Of a stretch of DNA of 64,000 bases, positions 43,989 to 59,176 are shown piece after piece. A model generated the notes under the pieces. That model did no database searches. It was given only the letters and a program-made list of their open reading frames with translations, and was not told the origin of the DNA. The stretch's first letter is position 1. Every line of letters starts with the position of its first letter. The stretch is from Dehalococcoidia bacterium (GTDB lineage Bacteria > Chloroflexota > Dehalococcoidia > Dehalococcoidales > Fen-1064), in assembly GCA_011171075.1 (NCBI GenBank), contig DUFD01000019.1, positions 1 through 64,000 on the forward strand. The letters are read 5' to 3'. Both the position numbers and the translations under genes were made by a program.

Positions 43989-44741
43989 CTAGCTACCGTC
44001 CCCCTTGAGGATGGTACGAACAGTTAGCAACATAATCTTGATATCGAGTAGGAGTGATTGCTTCTTGATATATTCCAGGTCGAGGTGAACCATTTCCTCG
44101 AATGTGACCTTCTTACGTTCAGTTACCTGCCATAATCCGGTTAAGCCGGGTGTTGCCTGAAACCTTTTCCAATGGCGGTCTTGGTACATCGATACTGCAA
44201 AAGGGATGTCAGGACGAGGACCCACTAAAGACATGTCCCCTTTAAGGATATTAATGAACTGGGGAAGCTCATCGAGGTTGGTTTTCCGTAGGAGACCACC
44301 AAATCTTGTGACACGCGGGTCTTTGATAAGCTCATAGATGTCCTCACCGTTTTCACTTAATTGGCCGGAGGCATTCCGTTGTATATAGTCCTGCAAGTAT
44401 AATTTATATTTAGTATCGTCATGATTGATGTACATACTGCGGAATTTGTAAAGGACAAATTTGCGTCCGTCTTTGCCTATTCGCTCCTGACGGAGTAAAG
44501 GGCTCCCTGGCGAATCAAGCCTGATGCCAAACGCGATGAGTACCATGACAGGGGATAAGACCATCAGTACCAGAAATGCCAGCAGGCGGTCGATGCCCCC
44601 TTTCCATAACTGGTATGTGGTCAGACGACTAATTCGCTTTCTATTTTGCGAGGATTTCAGGTGCATAAGGTCCTTCTCGTTTGGGGCAGTAGCTGTGGTA
44701 TATGCCCTGTGTTCTTGTTGTATTTCGCTCTGTTTTTGCAT
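43989..44741 (-). CDS. Initiating sugar transferase (undecaprenyl-phosphate sugar phosphotransferase family)
   Basis: PLLRQERIGKDGRKFVLYKFRSM; LRKTNLDELPQFINILKGDMSLVGPRPD; PGLTGLWQV. Confidence 0.93.
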   Translation of the reverse strand: MQKQSEIQQEHRAYTTATAPNEKDLMHLKSSQNRKRISRLTTYQLWKGGIDRLLAFLVLMVLSPVMVLIAFGIRLDSPGSPLLRQERIGKDGRKFVLYKFRSMYINHDDTKYKLYLQDYIQRNASGQLSENGEDIYELIKDPRVTRFGGLLRKTNLDELPQFINILKGDMSLVGPRPDIPFAVSMYQDRHWKRFQATPGLTGLWQVTERKKVTFEEMVHLDLEYIKKQSLLLDIKIMLLTVRTILKGDGS

Positions 44742-44773: not shown

Positions 44774-44832
44774 ATCCTAGCCTCTACTGGTTAGGAACAG
44801 GTGTAACGCAGGTTAGTACTAGGTTAGAATCC
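44774..44832 (-). promoter_or_regulatory. Candidate PhoB/OmpR-type promoter, array 1: four 11-bp direct repeats + -10
   Basis: + strand GGTTAGGAACA (44789) GGTGTAACGCA (44800) GGTTAGTACTA (44811) GGTTAGAATCC (44822); on - strand 9 nt downstream TAGGAT (44779-44774); gene starts at 44741. Confidence 0.7.
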
Positions 44833-46243: not shown

Positions 46244-48814
46244 TTATCTAGTCCAGGTCGGGACGACCTGGAATTCATTCTTTTTCCATACACGCAGAAA
46301 AGCGTTTACTACATCAGGGTCAAAGCATCGTCCAGACTCGGCGACGAGCTTCTGTGCAGCAACCTCGGGCGCTGTTGCTTCTTGGGATGCCCGACCCGCT
46401 GTCATTACGTCAAAACTATCCGCGACCGCTAGGATTCTAGCTCCCAGCGGGATGCTAGTGCCTTTTACTCCGAAGGGGTGACCGGTACCGTCGAATTTCT
46501 CACACTTGTGCCAGACCACATCAAGGGCCGTTGACAGGAAGTTGAGTCGTGATAATACCTTCCACATAATATTGAAACGCTTGCTCAGGTCGACGGCTTC
46601 CTCAAGAGTAGGCGCTATGGCCTGTTCCAACACGTCTTCGGGGCATGACACGAATCCCAGGTCTTTAAGCAGGGCAGCACAGTGTAATGTCTGCCGTTCA
46701 CTTCGTGACAGCTTGAATTCGTTGGCGATAAGCGAGGCGTTCTTGGCTACACGTCGGGCACTCTCTAGGTCGAAGAGATGACCAGCCTGTGCTGATGACG
46801 CAATCTCCCGGCAGATGATTTGCATAGCTTCCAGTATGGCCAACTGTTCAACCTCATGCTGCAATAGCCGGTCCTGCTCGCTTTCTAATCGACTGCTGAG
46901 TTCGTCGGCGAGGAAAAGCGAGCGATTACAGAGCACCACGAGTTCCTGTACCTTATAACTGAGCTTTTCGAGATTTTCTTTGGCAGCTGGTGGTATTTTC
47001 GCCTCGGCTTCCGTCAGAAGATTTTGCAGTCCTTCCAGCTGGGCTCGTGCCTCCTTACGGCTCGTTTCCGCAGCTGAAAGCAGGGCATCTACCCTTTCTA
47101 TCGAACTCTGCCAACGGCGGGGTATGGCAATCGTAAATGTCGTGCCTTCTGTTTCGTCGCTCTTAATGCTAAACTTTCCGCCAATACCCTGTAGCAATAC
47201 CTTTGCGAGATAGAGGTCGTTGTCCAGTCCATTCTGGAGCATGCCGTGAAGCTGACCCTGGAAGAGCATGGCCAATTCCTTGTGGGGGATGTGATGATTC
47301 CGGTTGGCGAGCTCTATCGTGATAAATGGGTCATTTATATCGGTTGTATTTAGCTGCAATCGGTCACCGGATGCACTGGAGTTTATCTCACCTCTGATTA
47401 GGTAGTACAGGCCTTTAGCTAGGCTCGCAGTGTCAACTATCAGAGAGCCGATACTATCAACCCCTTCGATATCAATCTCAATTCTCCGTTGTGCCGCCAG
47501 ACCCTTGACCTGACTCATAATCCAGTCCAGGGTGTTCCTCAGGTCTACCTCCTCCATGAATGTCTCTGCGGTAATCCAGTCCCCACTTGTCAAGTAGGAG
47601 AATTCCCGCAATACTTCGTTAAGACGCTCAGTGTGCTCCCGGATGGTATTCAGCTTGTGCCGTTGCCGGTGTCCTACATCGTCCATCGGCGCCGATTCCA
47701 GTGTTTCCAGGCTTTCCTGTATCGCTGAAATAGGTGTTTCCAACTCTTCGGTATGGAAGGCGACCCAGTTAAGTATACGCCGTAACATTCTCAGTTCTTC
47801 ACGGTAGGTATGCGGTATACCCCTGTTATACAGATTGAGTTCTGCTTCGGCGCCGTCTTCGCGGCGGTCCAGATAATGGTTACTGCCGGGCATGCGTTTC
47901 AGGTAATCGAGCAGTTCTGTAGCGGTCTCACTGACCTGTAGAGGGTGGTGGAACGTTCGTCTCTCGTTGGTAATGGCGGCGGCGGATATGGTCATAATCG
48001 GGTGTTGCTCTATCTCTCCCAATCGGCCTTCATACTCAATATAGCCCCTCTCCAGGTCTCTCTGCGTGTACAGTGTCCTGATGCGACTATCGAAATCGGC
48101 AATAATCCTCTGGCATAGGACCCTAGCCTTCGGGACGGAGGTAACGATGACGAAATTGTCGCTGCCGAGATGGGCTGTTAGGTCGCCGGGGTTACCAAAC
48201 AGTCCCACGGCCTCGCATAGTATTTCCGCCACAATCCCGATAGCGTGATCACCGTGATCAAAGCTATATGCCCTGTTAAACGTCTTGAGATTATCTATGT
48301 CTATATAAATAGCAGCGAAGGTCTTATTCTGCTCGATGAGAGAGGTGATTTCGCTGTGCGCCTGGATGTGGTTCGGCAGTCCTGTTAGCAGGTCTGTGTT
48401 TGCATCCCTTTCCATCTTTCGGAAATAGGCCTCGACCATTATCACAATCTCGTTGGGGTCAAAGGGTTTGGTGATATACTGGTCAGCCCCGTTTACGACG
48501 TCGGTCTTCCCACCGTCACCCTCTCCATCGGAGCCGATGATTATCACTGGGATGTGGCTGGTCTGCTGTGATTCCTTCAGCTGGCGGCAGACTTCCAAAC
48601 TTTCGTTATCGGGAAGGACGGCGTCAAGGAGGATAATATCGGGGTTCTCGCTGACAGCCTTGGTCAATGCCTGGGCCCCGCTTCGGGCAGAGATGACCTC
48701 GAGGTTAGCGTGGGCCAGGTTTACTTCCAGAATTCGGACTACTTCAAGGTCATGGTCAACTACCATGACCTTGCGGCGTTTCTGTCGTGACATCCGATTC
48801 GCGCTTATAGCCAC
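46244..48814 (-). CDS. Multidomain signalling protein: REC, degenerate GGDEF, degenerate histidine-kinase-like region, degenerate HD-GYP-like domain
   Basis: REC start KVMVVDHDLEVVRILEVNLA...TKPFDPNE; DLLTGLPNH...HLGSDNF; TEELETPI; LLKDLGF...FDGTGHP...IPLGARILAVADSFDVMTAGR. Confidence 0.8.
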   Translation of the reverse strand: MAISANRMSRQKRRKVMVVDHDLEVVRILEVNLAHANLEVISARSGAQALTKAVSENPDIILLDAVLPDNESLEVCRQLKESQQTSHIPVIIIGSDGEGDGGKTDVVNGADQYITKPFDPNEIVIMVEAYFRKMERDANTDLLTGLPNHIQAHSEITSLIEQNKTFAAIYIDIDNLKTFNRAYSFDHGDHAIGIVAEILCEAVGLFGNPGDLTAHLGSDNFVIVTSVPKARVLCQRIIADFDSRIRTLYTQRDLERGYIEYEGRLGEIEQHPIMTISAAAITNERRTFHHPLQVSETATELLDYLKRMPGSNHYLDRREDGAEAELNLYNRGIPHTYREELRMLRRILNWVAFHTEELETPISAIQESLETLESAPMDDVGHRQRHKLNTIREHTERLNEVLREFSYLTSGDWITAETFMEEVDLRNTLDWIMSQVKGLAAQRRIEIDIEGVDSIGSLIVDTASLAKGLYYLIRGEINSSASGDRLQLNTTDINDPFITIELANRNHHIPHKELAMLFQGQLHGMLQNGLDNDLYLAKVLLQGIGGKFSIKSDETEGTTFTIAIPRRWQSSIERVDALLSAAETSRKEARAQLEGLQNLLTEAEAKIPPAAKENLEKLSYKVQELVVLCNRSLFLADELSSRLESEQDRLLQHEVEQLAILEAMQIICREIASSAQAGHLFDLESARRVAKNASLIANEFKLSRSERQTLHCAALLKDLGFVSCPEDVLEQAIAPTLEEAVDLSKRFNIMWKVLSRLNFLSTALDVVWHKCEKFDGTGHPFGVKGTSIPLGARILAVADSFDVMTAGRASQEATAPEVAAQKLVAESGRCFDPDVVNAFLRVWKKNEFQVVPTWTR

Positions 48815-48853: not shown

Positions 48854-48912
48854 ATCATAATAGAGCCCTGTTAGAACAGTGTCAGAGGCAAGTTAGAAAA
48901 AGGTTAGAATCC
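48854..48912 (-). promoter_or_regulatory. Candidate PhoB/OmpR-type promoter, array 2: four 11-bp direct repeats + -10
   Basis: + strand TGTTAGAACAG (48869) TGTCAGAGGCA (48880) AGTTAGAAAAA (48891) GGTTAGAATCC (48902); on - strand 9 nt downstream TATGAT (48859-48854); gene starts at 48814. Confidence 0.75.
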
Positions 48913-49327
48913 GGATTATCTCTGATATTTACAACCATTTACATTATCATGGGTAAGGGTCGGGCCGGTCGTTAGTGATGACGATATGCGAAGAAAAGAA
49001 TAAGATATGTGAACTTGACATTTAAGGCTATACATTGTATTCTGTGATGTGAATTTTCCTATCTCCTCTATTCTTATCCTGTCTAAAGTTGAGTTATAGG
49101 TAGAGCACCGCAATCGGGCAGTCCACCTTTTGAATATTCAGGGTGTACTTGTCTCAAATGTGGTATTGGGTTTAACTAAATAGCGTACTCAGCCTGGAGC
49201 ATCAGGTGAATCTGTTAATCGGTGTCCTTGAAGACGAGTCCATCTGATGAGCGTAGGTGGAGAATAACGGGGGGAAGGAAGCGGGGGATAGTTCTGGCTG
49301 ACTTTACCGTGGTGTAGGGCGGGCAGT

Positions 49328-50077
49328 GTGAGAGAGAAGATACTACTGGTTGACGATGATTCCGAATTCTTAGGCCTGGCCCAGACTTGGCTGCAAAATG
49401 CCGGTTATAGGGTGATGACGGCCGAGAATGGTAAAGTCGGGCTACGCCGCGTTTTTAGCGGACGTCCCCATCTGGTCGTCCTGGATGGTAATATGCCCAG
49501 GATGAACGGATGGGAGGTCTGTCATCGTATCAGGGATATGAGTGATATCCCTGTTATCATGGTTACTGTCAACGGCGAAACATCAGACCGACTGAGGGGA
49601 TTTGACCTTGGTGCTGATGACTACATGACCAAGCCGATTGATTTCCCTGAACTCGTGGCACGGATTGGGGCTATCCTGCGGCGGTGTTCAATCGAAATCC
49701 ATGAAGAAGAGCCTGAGAGCTTTCGTGATGGTGAGGTAGAGATTGACTGGAGGGGTCATCAGGTCTATGTAAGAGGGGAACTGGTAAAGCTATCACCAAC
49801 GGAGTTTAAGTTGCTGGCTTGCTTGGTAAAAAACCGGGGGTGGATAGTTACCCACGAACAACTCCTGCAGAAGGTCTGGGGTTCGAACTATGTCGGCGAC
49901 AAGTCGTTTGTCAAGCTGTATGTCAGGTACCTGCGCCAGAAAATAGAAGAAGACCCGCAGAATCCGCGTTTAATCCTGACCGAGCGGGGTGTAGGCTACC
50001 GTTTTGTGTCGCGCGACAGGCAAGACGTCGCCAATGAGAGCGAGGACATTGATGAGCCAAGGGCCATCTCCTGGTGA
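49328..50077 (+). CDS. Response regulator, OmpR/PhoB family with winged-helix output domain
   Basis: ILLVDDDSEF, VVLDGNMP, MTKPIDF; C-terminal LSPTEFKLLACLVKN...VGDKSFVKLYVRYLRQKIE...GVGYRF. Confidence 0.95.
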   Translation: MREKILLVDDDSEFLGLAQTWLQNAGYRVMTAENGKVGLRRVFSGRPHLVVLDGNMPRMNGWEVCHRIRDMSDIPVIMVTVNGETSDRLRGFDLGADDYMTKPIDFPELVARIGAILRRCSIEIHEEEPESFRDGEVEIDWRGHQVYVRGELVKLSPTEFKLLACLVKNRGWIVTHEQLLQKVWGSNYVGDKSFVKLYVRYLRQKIEEDPQNPRLILTERGVGYRFVSRDRQDVANESEDIDEPRAISW

Positions 50078-50957
50078 AGAGCGAGATGAAGGGGTACCCT
50101 ATCCTTTCACCATCATCGGGAAAGATGCTGAGAGCAGCACAACCCGGATGAAGCGGGATGAACATGGTATCCCTGTTATTTATGATGCTGCTATGCAGGA
50201 TGCATCTCCTGTACAGAAGCCGATAGAGCACACTGAGCCAGACGCCATTTCTGTACTCTCCCATGAATTGCTTTCGCCACTTACTCTAATCAAGGGGTAT
50301 GCCGCCACTCTCCTCCAGCTTTCTGACTCCATTACCGAGGAGCAAAGCAGGCAGTACCTCCAGGGAATTCAGGCGGCTACCGACCGCGTAATTCGACTGC
50401 TGGAGAACTTGCGGGATATCTCGCGATTTGAAATAGCCGCTCCAAATCTCGTCTTGCAGCCAACGTCACTATCGGACATGCTGCGGAAGACGGCGTTCGA
50501 AATACAGAGCCAGACAACGGAGCATGTAATCAGGCTACGTTTGTCTAACCAATTGCCTAAGGTGAACGTCGACCGGCTGAAAATGGAGCAGGTGCTGACG
50601 AATCTACTGGCAAATGCGGTCAAGTACTCACCGAAGGGTGGCGACATCGAGGTGAACTTGCGGCAGGCAACCAGTGAGCATGATGTGCTAGGGTCACTAG
50701 GTGAAGTACCCCCTTTGCGCTATCCATGCCAGATTGTGTCCGTGGTTGATTCGGGCATTGGAATTCCAGAGGCGGAGTTGGAGCGTATATTCGAGCGGTT
50801 TTATCGAGTAGACAACCGGCTGACCCGCGCTACCTCGGGTGCCGGTCTCGGCCTGCACATCTGCAAGATAATCGTGGAAGCTCACGGCGGTCGTATCTGG
50901 GCCAGTAATAGGAATCCGGAAGGCTGTATCTTCAGCTTCTCAATACCGGTGAGCTAG
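50052..50957 (+). CDS. Soluble sensor histidine kinase (HisKA + HATPase)
   Basis: LSHELLSPLTLIKGY H-box; NLLANAVKYSPKGG N-box; DSGIGIP; GAGLGLHI; no TM segment; overlaps RR by 26 nt. Confidence 0.93.
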   Translation: MSQGPSPGEERDEGVPYPFTIIGKDAESSTTRMKRDEHGIPVIYDAAMQDASPVQKPIEHTEPDAISVLSHELLSPLTLIKGYAATLLQLSDSITEEQSRQYLQGIQAATDRVIRLLENLRDISRFEIAAPNLVLQPTSLSDMLRKTAFEIQSQTTEHVIRLRLSNQLPKVNVDRLKMEQVLTNLLANAVKYSPKGGDIEVNLRQATSEHDVLGSLGEVPPLRYPCQIVSVVDSGIGIPEAELERIFERFYRVDNRLTRATSGAGLGLHICKIIVEAHGGRIWASNRNPEGCIFSFSIPVS

Positions 50958-52489
50958 TTTCCGCTCTTCATGGTGAGGGCACGCTTTCTAGCCGTTACAC
51001 GGTATCTGATACCTTCGATTACTCTCCTGGTGAATATGCTCTGGTAGAAAAACTTTTCGACGTAACGGTTGATAATAAGATAGCTGACCAGTTTGCCTAC
51101 TACCCGATTCTTTAAAAGTATTCCCAGCACTTTGTTCCGGCGCAGTATGCGCAGAATGAACTCCCTGTGCACCTGTCGTCTTACCTTGGTGAGGTACTTA
51201 AACAGCTCAAGTCGCGCTTTACCAGGTAGCTCCGGGGTCTCAAAAACAGGCGTCAGTGCCTCGGGTTGCCAGCTCGTTGGCCAGAAGGAAGCGTGGTTCA
51301 GGTATTCCTCGGGTTCCTCCAGAAACAGATTGTTTTCTTTTACCCAGTTGAAAAGCTCTGTTCCGGGAGTGGGGATGGTGTTGTAAAAATGCACCTCCTG
51401 GATGGGGTACTTCCGGGAAAGCCTGACTTTATCCTCGACGTCATCCCTGGTCTCGTAAGGCGTCCCTACCACGAACAGTAACTTAACATCGTAGCCAAGG
51501 TCACAGGCATCGCTGACGGCCTGCTCTATCTGCTCGATGGTCTCGCCCTTCTTGACAATCTCAAGCATCCGGTTGTTACCGGCGTCAACGCCGAAGGCGA
51601 TATAGCGGAACCCCACCTCACGCATCCTTTCCATCATCTCCCGGTCCACCCGGTCGGCCCGGATGCCATTGGAGCAACGCAAGAACAGGTCTTTGAGGCC
51701 ACGCCGCTCGATTTCGTCGCATATCTCGAAGACACGCTCCCTTATCAGGTTAAAATTGTCGTCATCGAAGTTAAACTGCCGGTGGCCTTTTCGGTACCAG
51801 TGTTCCACCTCGTCCACCACGTGTTTTGGACTTCGGGGTCGGTAGTACGGCGAAATGATTCTGTTGGGGCAGAAAATGCATTGGTGGGGACAGCCCCGGC
51901 TGGAGTATATTGTTATTTCGCCCATGTACTTGTCGAGTTCAAACTTTTCGTACCTCGGCCAGGGGATTGTATCCAGGTCCTTCACGAATTCTCTGTCTCC
52001 GGCATAGGTGATGTCCCCGTTTTGCCTGGAGATTAGGCCTTTGATATCTGCTTCGGCAAGCTCACCCTGGCAGAGTTCGGTTAGAGTCCCTTCTCCCTCG
52101 TAGACCACGCCGTAGTCGATGGCGGCACATTCCTTCAATACCTGCTCCCTCATAATTGTTACATGAGGCCCGCCGACGATTATTCTTATGTCCGGGTATT
52201 GGTCCTTAATCGCCGACAGTATCTCGTAGAACCTCTTGTATTCAAAGGAGATTAAACTCATACCTATGATGTCAGGACGGAAAACTTCTATCTTGTGGAT
52301 TATGTCCTTCAGGTCATAGCCCAGGTTCATATCCAGGATATCGTATTCAATCCCGTTCTCGAGCAGCGTCTGGGCCAAATACGCCTGCCCGATGTGTGGT
52401 GTCAGTCCGCGCCACTCGGCACGAGGGCTGGGCGTAACCAGAAGTACTCTTTCAAACCTCATTTGCTGTTTTTCCTTCTCCTGAGCCAT
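50954..52489 (-). CDS. B12-binding domain radical SAM protein
   Basis: Cobalamin-binding-like N-terminus; YSSRGCPHQCIFC. Confidence 0.92.
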   Translation of the reverse strand: MAQEKEKQQMRFERVLLVTPSPRAEWRGLTPHIGQAYLAQTLLENGIEYDILDMNLGYDLKDIIHKIEVFRPDIIGMSLISFEYKRFYEILSAIKDQYPDIRIIVGGPHVTIMREQVLKECAAIDYGVVYEGEGTLTELCQGELAEADIKGLISRQNGDITYAGDREFVKDLDTIPWPRYEKFELDKYMGEITIYSSRGCPHQCIFCPNRIISPYYRPRSPKHVVDEVEHWYRKGHRQFNFDDDNFNLIRERVFEICDEIERRGLKDLFLRCSNGIRADRVDREMMERMREVGFRYIAFGVDAGNNRMLEIVKKGETIEQIEQAVSDACDLGYDVKLLFVVGTPYETRDDVEDKVRLSRKYPIQEVHFYNTIPTPGTELFNWVKENNLFLEEPEEYLNHASFWPTSWQPEALTPVFETPELPGKARLELFKYLTKVRRQVHREFILRILRRNKVLGILLKNRVVGKLVSYLIINRYVEKFFYQSIFTRRVIEGIRYRVTARKRALTMKSGN

Positions 52490-56567: not shown

Positions 56568-57626
56568 CTACGCGAGATGTTTGTATAATAGTGAACCGGC
56601 TGCCCTGAATATAAACTCAGGCATCGAGTATGAGAACAGCTGCATTGCCCGGTATTTTCTGCTGTTCTCCGGGACTGTAGAAAAACCTCCTACCTCGGGG
56701 TAATAGTAATATGGCAAGTCTATCTCATTTGCCCCCCATCTGGCTTTGAAAGTTCGAAGCCCCTCCTCTTCCGGTGAGCAGCGACCGAAATCAAAGTGGT
56801 TGTAGTCGCTGGCACATGCATACCGAATTGCTTCCCAGATAACCAGATTATTTGGACGTTTTTGCAGGTATTTCTCGTCAGAAGCATTGGACTTATAGTG
56901 AATGTTGTCCTTGTAGGTGATGAAGAGGGCTCCGGCGATGACCTTTGTCTCCCATTCAGCCATCGCCAGGAAACCTGAGCCCTGGGAGATTATGTGGTGG
57001 AAGATAGCCTCGAAGAAAGCGCGGGGTTGCGGCAATACGCCAAGCTTTTTGCGAGTGGCCACATTCAAGTCATAGAAGCGCTCCATGTCCTCTTTACTCT
57101 GGGATATTCGTGCTGTTACACCTCTTTTCTCAGCCTGGCGGATACCCCTTCTGATGCTATCGTGAAATCTCTTGAGTAGTGTATCCGTATCTGGAGATAA
57201 GTCCAGAATATATGAGGTATGAAAATGATGGGCTACCAGACTCAGCTGTGCCGGCGGTATCCCGTTTGGCCACCCTCTGACCTCAATATATGAAGCCGTC
57301 CGCGCATCAATTTCCTTTTTGGCTGAGTCCAAAAGTAGCGTAATAAGGGTCTCATCCTCTCCCAGAGGATGACAGAAGTCGCAGAATGGTAGGCAAACCA
57401 GTCTCTTACCGGTCAACATGCTCCGGATGAGATATAATGGTATCGCAGCCATGATTTGGCCTGCTTCATTTTCGAGGACATAATAACGCGGCTTGTAGTC
57501 ATAGGCTTCTTTAATCACCTTTGCCCAGGCAGAGGTGTGATATATCGTGCCATGCTCTTGCCCGGTAACGAACTCGTCCCACCGACTGTCATTTGTAGGG
57601 TCGATAATATTAATCTTCTCTGTCAT
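56568..57626 (-). CDS. FemAB/GNAT-fold peptidyl or aminoacyl transferase-like
   Basis: YHTSAWAKVIKEAYDYKPRYYVLEN...YIEVRGWP...FDFGRCSPEEEGLRTFKARWGA. Confidence 0.82.
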   Translation of the reverse strand: MTEKINIIDPTNDSRWDEFVTGQEHGTIYHTSAWAKVIKEAYDYKPRYYVLENEAGQIMAAIPLYLIRSMLTGKRLVCLPFCDFCHPLGEDETLITLLLDSAKKEIDARTASYIEVRGWPNGIPPAQLSLVAHHFHTSYILDLSPDTDTLLKRFHDSIRRGIRQAEKRGVTARISQSKEDMERFYDLNVATRKKLGVLPQPRAFFEAIFHHIISQGSGFLAMAEWETKVIAGALFITYKDNIHYKSNASDEKYLQKRPNNLVIWEAIRYACASDYNHFDFGRCSPEEEGLRTFKARWGANEIDLPYYYYPEVGGFSTVPENSRKYRAMQLFSYSMPEFIFRAAGSLLYKHLA

Positions 57627-57781
57627 TATCCCTGACGAACGATAGTAGTGTGTTCAGCGGTTACTCTCATGTTAGGCTTACTTTTCATGTCGCTGAATTT
57701 ATATAACATATAAATAAGAAACCTTACTTACACTAGTGCCTTCTGACCACAATGCTGGAGTATATCTTGAAGGTTGGATCC

Positions 57782-59110
57782 TCAGCTCTGCCTCCTCCCA
57801 TTCTGCAGCCAGTTTTCAAAAACCCTCAGCACGAAATCGATTAGTGTTATCGAATCGATATCACCGGTTACAGACAGGGCACTCCTGGCCTTTTCCGGCC
57901 ACCGCCAGTATCTGAGCAGAGGGGCATCTGTCTGCTCGATTCTCTCGGAAAGCGGCTTTTCGTCAGCTTCTTCAAACCGTGCCAGGTCGCTGAGATAGAT
58001 TGGATAGTTGTCGGGCTGCTCGCTTCGCTCGACGATGAACCCCTCACTCTTTAGAAAACTCACTGCGTCTGGTGAAGTATCCAAACTCACCCCGATTACA
58101 GGGCACCTCGGGCTTTCCAGTATGAAATCCCTGGCACTGATACTCTGATAACCATTAGCCCATTCAGCAACCGGTGTATTCACTTTGCAGTTTTTGAGTA
58201 AAATTGTTGCATTTTCGGAGCAGTTTGCCTTCACGCTGTATCTGTCATTGGTCTCGTGACTAATCTCAAAGGTAAAGGTATCTCTCTGTCTCCACCATTC
58301 AGCGATTTCTCTCAGAGTTGCAGTCCATACAGCAGGGCTGAGTTGCTTTGCCCGTCGTAAGGTGTCTGTTAAGGCATTCTCACAGATTGGGATACGCTCG
58401 GGGTGGAGAGAAATATTGAATAGCTCCCCTCTATCGTATGTCTTCTTGAGGATAGACCTCCAGATCTCACTTATAACTTCTCCATTCGAGATACCCAGTC
58501 TGTCTACCATTCCCTCATCATCCGGGAAGGAAACTGGGATTTCGACAAGGCCGTCCACGAACTTCGGCAGTGAAAGGTACTTCTGGGACTCTTTTGGTGT
58601 ATTGAAATCGAGTAGGCTGTTATAAGCACTCCATCCCTGACTTGTTAATTCGATTTTGTCCAGTACGTCCCAGTTTATCGCACAACTGCTATCGTAGGCG
58701 AAAGACAGGTTACCGAGTGCCTCGACTGTCTCATTATTGATACGCAGAAAAGGGGCGCGAAAGCCGGTAAAGGGAACATGACAGCTCTCGAAAGAGTGGA
58801 TTGCTTTCTTGAAATGCCTGACCTGCTCTTGCAGTGGGAGTACACCGTAGTCGATATGGATATAGCCATGAACAGCAAACTCAACGCCCTGACTGCTCAG
58901 CTCTCTTATTATTCCGGGGTGCCTTTCTAAAATCTTGGCTGTTATCGGCAGGGTAGGTACGCAGCCAAGTTCACTGGTTACAGCGTTATATCTGTTTAGA
59001 GTTCGCTCAAATCGATTTGCAGTCATGCCAAACCGACAAAGCACTGTTCCAATCCTTCGGAGCAGATTTCTCGTTCCTCTGGACTTCGACAGCATATACG
59101 TGGGATTCAT
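57782..59110 (-). CDS. Polysaccharide deacetylase (NodB-like) family protein
   Basis: FAVHGYIHIDYGVLPLQEQVRHFKKAIHSFE; GFRAPFLRINNETVEAL. ORF opens at 59122; ATG 59110 (MNPTYM) preferred from the promoter position. Confidence 0.8.
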   Translation of the reverse strand: MNPTYMLSKSRGTRNLLRRIGTVLCRFGMTANRFERTLNRYNAVTSELGCVPTLPITAKILERHPGIIRELSSQGVEFAVHGYIHIDYGVLPLQEQVRHFKKAIHSFESCHVPFTGFRAPFLRINNETVEALGNLSFAYDSSCAINWDVLDKIELTSQGWSAYNSLLDFNTPKESQKYLSLPKFVDGLVEIPVSFPDDEGMVDRLGISNGEVISEIWRSILKKTYDRGELFNISLHPERIPICENALTDTLRRAKQLSPAVWTATLREIAEWWRQRDTFTFEISHETNDRYSVKANCSENATILLKNCKVNTPVAEWANGYQSISARDFILESPRCPVIGVSLDTSPDAVSFLKSEGFIVERSEQPDNYPIYLSDLARFEEADEKPLSERIEQTDAPLLRYWRWPEKARSALSVTGDIDSITLIDFVLRVFENWLQNGRRQS

Positions 59111-59117
59111 GGTTAGC

Positions 59118-59176
59118 ATCATAACACCGTGAGGTTGGAATATGGTTAGAATAATGTTATCTGGTGGTTAGAATCA
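59118..59176 (-). promoter_or_regulatory. Candidate PhoB/OmpR-type promoter, array 3: four 11-bp direct repeats + -10
   Basis: + strand GGTTGGAATAT (59133) GGTTAGAATAA (59144) TGTTATCTGGT (59155) GGTTAGAATCA (59166); on - strand 9 nt downstream TATGAT (59123-59118). Confidence 0.7.

Follow-up and report, generated by a model that had tools for sequence, protein, structure and literature searches.

A conserved four-box direct-repeat promoter array and its probable OmpR/PhoB-family regulator in a Dehalococcoidia bacterium

Introduction

Pho boxes are built of 11-nt direct repeat units, on which the regulator binds head to tail and contacts sigma70 (PMC4415409). In E. coli the repeats are 8 bp long with 3-bp linkers and lie 10 bp upstream of the -10 element, and the SphR Pho boxes of cyanobacteria, CTTAACCT, occur as at least three tandem repeats (PMC1906773). 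Gene regulation in uncultured Dehalococcoidia is little known. In the open-access literature we found nothing relevant on the motif string described below or on response-regulator direct repeats in Chloroflexi, and no paper joining Dehalococcoidia, two-component systems and exopolysaccharide.

Here we analyse a window of 64,000 nucleotides from a Dehalococcoidia bacterium, which forms the start of an 83-kb contig. The initial annotation had proposed that it contains a novel response-regulator box, through which an adjoining regulator and kinase control a polysaccharide regulon. It had noted that PhoB/PhoP/OmpR-family proteins bind direct repeats of 11-bp period next to the -10; the published Pho boxes have this layout (PMC4415409, PMC1906773).

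Results

The window contains three arrays on the - strand, at 48854-48912, 44774-44832 and 59118-59176, each with the layout (nnnTTCTAACC)x4, 9 nt, TAnGAT. Direct reading of all three sites confirmed the layout and coordinates first given for them, including the recurrence of 4 x 11 bp, 9 nt and TAnGAT at 44774-44832 (TAGGAT) and 59118-59176 (TATGAT). The arrays and the genes that they precede are:

48854..48912, - strand: array 1, the hybrid signalling gene promoter: four boxes of 11 bp, a 9-nt gap and TATGAT as -10
48913..48923, - strand: weak fifth box AGAGATAATCC (tentative), upstream of array 1
44774..44832, - strand: array 2, the sugar transferase gene promoter: four boxes, a 9-nt gap and TAGGAT as -10
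59118..59176, - strand: array 3, the polysaccharide deacetylase gene promoter: four boxes, a 9-nt gap and TATGAT as -10
46244..48814, - strand: hybrid signalling protein (Pfam), target of array 1
43989..44741, - strand: bacterial sugar transferase of the EPS initiating-transferase type (Pfam PF02397), target of array 2
57782..59110, - strand: polysaccharide deacetylase-like protein, probably leaderless (Pfam PF01522), target of array 3

At 48854-48912 the + strand reads TGTTAGAACAG TGTCAGAGGCA AGTTAGAAAAA GGTTAGAATCC, and the - strand GGATTCTAACC TTTTTCTAACT TGCCTCTGACA CTGTTCTAACA, then GGGCTCTAT, then TATGAT. The repeat unit is thus TTCTAACC plus 3 variable bases, repeated in register with an 11-bp period, four times per array. 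Direct-repeat promoters have two or more repeats of this period, the last of them about 10 bp before a sigma70 -10, and no functional -35. All three arrays have four units, the gap to the -10 is 9 nt in the genus, and no usable -35 was found with spacers of 15-19 nt upstream of the three -10s (0-3/6 matches to TTGACA). The only known RNA family recognised within 40000-64000 was one tRNA.

When TTCTAAC x4 at 11-bp period was scanned over both strands of the window (maximum 28 matches), the array at 48854 scored 26/28 and the other two 24 and 22, while the best other place, register-shifted copies of the arrays excluded, reached 18/28 and the maxima in ten shuffles were 17-19/28. A pattern search of the whole genome (2.14 Mb, 53 contigs, at most 3 mismatches of 24) returned the arrays at 48854 and 59118, one shifted copy and nothing else, and the reversed control pattern gave no match in the same 2.14 Mb at the same threshold. 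A chance origin was rejected on the basis of these shuffles and reversed-pattern controls.

The initial annotation had made its proposal depend on conservation of the arrays in relatives, and they are indeed kept. G013, a genome of the same genus in one contig, has all three arrays in register before orthologous genes. Box identity is 41/44, 36/44 and 40/44 for arrays 1, 2 and 3, and the -10 is identical (6/6) at each, whereas the 9-nt spacers agree at only 5/9, 3/9 and 4/9 positions and the 60 bases just upstream at 23, 24 and 14 of 60. Boxes and -10 are therefore kept and the spacer is not, which is the pattern expected of protein-binding sites. The weak fifth box of array 1 is not kept in G013, which has AGCCGCAAACG at the equivalent place.

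Wider scans also answered the concern that the pattern might occur at chance frequency in coding DNA, since they place the arrays in intergenic DNA. A sequence-only profile made from nine arrays and run against 14 genomes of the family gave 8, 10 and 14 matches at E <= 5 in the three genus genomes, the best far below that value, and outside the genus none below E = 0.1. Nearly all the further arrays that it detected in this genome and its two congeners are intergenic. The matches left out of profile building are intergenic and in register, and in most of them a TAnnnT-like hexamer follows after 9 nt; of the 18 profile matches examined, one overlaps an ORF, of 73 aa. The position matrix suggested at the outset was also built, from the 12 units of the window only and ignoring the -10, and applied at >=17 bits to loci of four other genomes. 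As many as 33/34 of its matches fall outside ORFs >=80 aa, compared with 82% of positions inside such ORFs, and behind these matches similarity to TATAAT peaks at offset 9; the loci scanned had been chosen via matches of the fuller profile, which includes the -10.

That the arrays play no part in regulation, being a chance pattern or a repeat element that has spread, could be argued from the shortness of the core and from two G013 arrays (14980 and 1821350) that are near copies of one another. However, the flanks of different arrays are otherwise unrelated, and the shuffles, the reversed-pattern controls, the footprint with its unconserved spacer and the intergenic bias leave this reading hardly any credibility. 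As judged from these comparisons, the predicted four-box promoter switch of the three window genes is real and evolutionarily conserved.

Divergent from the hybrid gene lies a two-component gene pair:

49015..49043, + strand: sigma70-like promoter TTGACA-17-TATTCT, facing the regulator-kinase genes, without boxes
49328..50077, + strand: OmpR/PhoB-family response regulator (Pfam receiver + Trans_reg_C), proposed activator
50004..50957, + strand: histidine kinase with HisKA + HATPase_c and without a predicted sensor region (Pfam), proposed partner

The pair had been described as a PhoB-type regulator with a soluble kinase; Pfam gives receiver plus Trans_reg_C in one protein, HisKA plus HATPase_c and no predicted sensor region in the other. 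Both regulator domains match above cut-off (PF00072, 5.1e-28; PF00486, 3e-26) and the phospho-acceptor Asp53 is invariant in its clade, which places the protein in the OmpR/PhoB family. Its closest solved relatives over the full-length receiver and winged helix are 2gwr (MtrA), 4kny/4kfc (KdpE) and 2oqr (RegX3), at about 157-160 bits. The kinase lacks some 240 N-terminal residues found in the G012 and G013 orthologues (545 aa), a region that is GAF-like in G012; the orthologue in W425 is also short (320 aa), and no sensor domain was recognised in the window kinase. Autoregulation of the regulator was considered and rejected, since no array faces it and an ordinary TTGACA-17-TATTCT promoter does. 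Both hexamers of that promoter are kept in G013, and the pair appears, from its upstream sequence, to be made from an ordinary sigma70 promoter.

Orthologues of the regulator were searched for in 156 genomes of the order, counting as close those with 66% identity or more. Close orthologues occur in only 5/156 (this genome, G000, and G012, G013, G105 and G107), one further genome having a match of 50% identity, and the hybrid gene is present in the same 5/156. Array counts at E <= 0.05 are 5 in G000, 7 in G012, 11 in G013, 9 in G105 and 5 in G107, and 4 in the next best genome, so that the five regulator-bearing genomes are the top five; they fall into two clades, and the co-occurrence thus represents at least two events rather than five. 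Regulator and hybrid gene remain adjacent in the five genomes, which belong to two families. The regulator clade has 100/99 support, and its recognition helix, GDKSFVKLY[VI]RYLR[QR]KIE, is common to all seven members and to no other regulator sampled. An orphan paralogue, 78-80% identical to the regulator and with the same recognition helix, was seen in G000 (C50:11752-12435, L070) and G012 (C5:55834-56514, L058); no array lies near it in either genome, and no close copy was found in G013, G105 or G107.

The hybrid protein is composed of a receiver, a degenerate GGDEF, a degenerate kinase-like region and a degenerate HD domain. In four orthologues the GGDEF signature reads GSDNF, GGDNF, GGDNF and NGNKF, and the HD pair is KD or DD. 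Since both signatures are degenerate, the hybrid is probably not an active cyclic-di-GMP enzyme. The G013 gene has one in-frame TGA.

Array targets were annotated in this genome, G012, G013, G105 and W425. The hybrid signalling gene is a target in five genomes. The sugar transferase, whose EPS_sugtrans match is below cut-off, is a target in this genome, G013 and G105, and the polysaccharide deacetylase in this genome, G013 and W425. In these last three genomes the deacetylase geometry is the same: the -10 follows the boxes and stands exactly 7 nt before an ATG or GTG. For the window gene, listed from 59122, a start at 59110 is the more likely, at this distance of 7 nt from the -10. With so tight a start the mRNA would be leaderless, and the assigned -10 gains support. 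A TreT-like glycosyltransferase is a target in G012, G013 and W425, and W425 adds a GT4 glycosyltransferase, an epimerase, an ATP-grasp protein and, behind a weak array, UDP-glucose dehydrogenase. The remaining targets include a FemAB-like protein and a DUF11 repeat protein (G013), a large repeat protein with an apparent signal peptide (G000:C32), a T2SS-type ATPase (G012) and a GFO/IDH/MocA dehydrogenase (G105). In G013 the FemAB-like gene is placed separately, in divergent orientation to the deacetylase gene and behind a five-unit array of its own; no array was seen by eye before the FemAB-like gene of the window (gap 57626-57782).

For other targets the relation is less obvious: an HMGL-like enzyme, a glyoxalase-fold protein, MFS and radical-SAM proteins, a methyltransferase, a GNAT protein, and two small proteins that are conserved as a pair. 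This pair stands behind arrays in all three genus genomes (L044 4345-4787, L050 4590-4984, L052 6387-6781). One member is acidic (...AxQKAFEQGLEQGYWVGR...) and gave no Pfam match in two of the three; the other is zinc-ribbon-like, with four cysteines (CPxCG...CxxCG). Within the polysaccharide region of the window, 50954-52489 encodes a B12-binding radical SAM protein nearest HpnJ, at 167.6 bits far below that family's cut-off of 577.6.

The proposal that the adjacent pair governs a polysaccharide regulon is supported as to the regulator and fits many targets. It proved too narrow in that the predicted regulon also takes in surface proteins that are secreted, an ATPase of secretion type and genes of unassigned role, and the lack of an evident polysaccharide link for some targets counts against it. 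"Envelope and polysaccharide regulon" is a fair but incomplete label.

Related arrays are found beyond the genus. W425 (G014, with the same matches as G107; family f27) has a hybrid orthologue at 39% identity in the same divergent regulator-kinase neighbourhood, and its hybrid promoter reads AGATTCTAACC ATTTTCTAACT TCACTCTGACA TCAATCTAACG, 10 nt, TATCAT, with the start codon about 42 nt further on. In G105, also of family f27, the hybrid gene is preceded by an array whose gap is 10 nt, and the divergent regulator/hybrid arrangement is the same; in G012, too, an equivalent of array 1 precedes the orthologous hybrid gene. In several G105 and W425 arrays the boxes are weak or a clear -10 is missing. 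G123 (L254) and G151 (L255, L256) lack a close orthologue of the 49328-50077 regulator but have very good arrays of four boxes, with TATCAT or TATGAT. TTTTAAC-type four-box arrays, followed by 9 nt and a -10, were observed in G034 (L263) and G049 (L264) and resemble Pho boxes. The TTCTAACG arrays of G122 and G147 have regulators nearby that belong to a neighbouring clade and whose recognition helix is similar, a further sign that arrays and adjacent regulators belong together.

Discussion

The arrays could be the Pho boxes of this organism, with a PhoB/PhoP orthologue as binder and phosphate limitation as inducer. Their layout is identical to that of Pho boxes, the core resembles the cyanobacterial SphR box CTTAACCT, and the TTTAAC-type tandem arrays of G034 and G049 share the layout. 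Nevertheless, in the pst region of G105 the core is another one (TTTAACA, TTAAAAC, TTTAAAC) at the same spacing, followed by 9 nt and TATGAT, in an array about 640 nt before the first ORF >=150 aa, and no sampled regulator of the genus falls within the clade of the regulator beside those pst genes. Against the PhoB equivalog the window regulator scores 173.3 bits, where the cut-off is 296.2, so that it does not qualify as a PhoB/PhoP orthologue. No PstB above the family cut-off was found in this genus, nor boxes upstream of pst or other phosphate genes, and the annotated targets are envelope genes instead. Tested on pst loci, identity with the phosphate box was rejected for the genus, given the other core in G105 and the lack of PstB, and we regard a phosphate-regulon role as very improbable.

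It is less improbable, though still unlikely, that the arrays are real and mainly bound by another OmpR-family regulator, either the orphan at G000:C50:11752-12435 or a member of another clade. The orphan has the same recognition helix, and the neighbouring clade (G122, G147; G000 C40:39486), with a similar one, lies beside the TTCTAACG arrays of G122 and G147. However, array-bearing G013, G105 and G107 have no close copy of the orphan that we could find, members of the other clade occur in G001 and G003, where no array was found at E <= 0.05, and the regulator kept beside the hybrid promoter is of the 49328-50077 type.

We therefore favour, with considerable confidence, the reading that the arrays are activator sites of the OmpR/PhoB-family regulator encoded at 49328-50077; the regulator encoded next door very probably binds them. 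This attribution is supported by adjacency in five genomes of two families, by the co-occurrence of the clade, the hybrid gene and most arrays in the same 5/156 genomes, by a recognition helix private to the clade, by the related arrays that adjoin related regulators in G122 and G147, and by the evidence counting against the phosphate box, its main alternative. The orphan with the same helix in G000 and G012 and the good arrays in G123 and G151 count against it, as do the weaker arrays of G105 and W425.

We propose that the kinase (50004-50957) would phosphorylate the regulator, and that regulator monomers would then bind one per box, head to tail on one helix face, giving two dimers per array. 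The arrays would stand in place of a -35, as the copy on the last box would sit at about the -35 position and recruit sigma70 RNA polymerase. The response would turn on envelope genes (sugar transferase, deacetylase, glycosyltransferases, secreted surface proteins) and also the large, probably non-catalytic signalling protein, which may feed back on the system. As an array target in all five genomes, we conjecture that the hybrid may serve as a feedback or output adaptor. It is tempting, if rather speculative, to regard regulator, kinase and non-catalytic hybrid as a module with a DNA word of its own, which Dehalococcoidia families share or exchange as a whole and which controls whichever surface-polysaccharide genes gain a four-box promoter, the hybrid being a pseudo-enzyme feedback adaptor and not a cyclic-di-GMP enzyme.

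The arrays point to surface-matrix genes that probably respond together, and the regulator, the DNA word, the promoter geometry and the target list can all be tested in vitro without growing the organism. Moreover, TTCTAACC, TTCTAACG and TTTAAAC, each near a sequenced regulator, form a natural specificity series on one scaffold that is useful for studying how OmpR-family proteins read DNA.

Compared with known systems, the regulator resembles MtrA, KdpE and RegX3 in its full-length receiver and winged-helix match. It differs from MtrA and KdpE in falling below the NCBIfam equivalog cut-offs (203.7 against 300 bits for MtrA, 171 against 325 for KdpE), and the targets here are not kdp or mtr genes. 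The arrays share with SphR boxes the tandem 8-bp boxes, the 3-bp linkers and a similar AACC core (PMC1906773), but the core word is another one, and SphR acts on phosphate genes, none of which was seen among the annotated array targets. With PhoB Pho-box promoters of the E. coli pstS type they have in common 11-bp direct repeats, AT-rich linkers and a position about 10 bp before a TAN3T -10; in contrast, the core is TTCTAACC rather than the CTGTCAT of PhoB, there are four boxes per array, and the targets are envelope rather than phosphate genes. Since the layout matches that of published Pho boxes, the mechanism is, by analogy, of the known PhoB/OmpR type, and to that extent the box is not novel as first proposed; the novelty holds for the motif and the regulon, as the core word, the regulator clade and the target list appear new within our limited open-access search.
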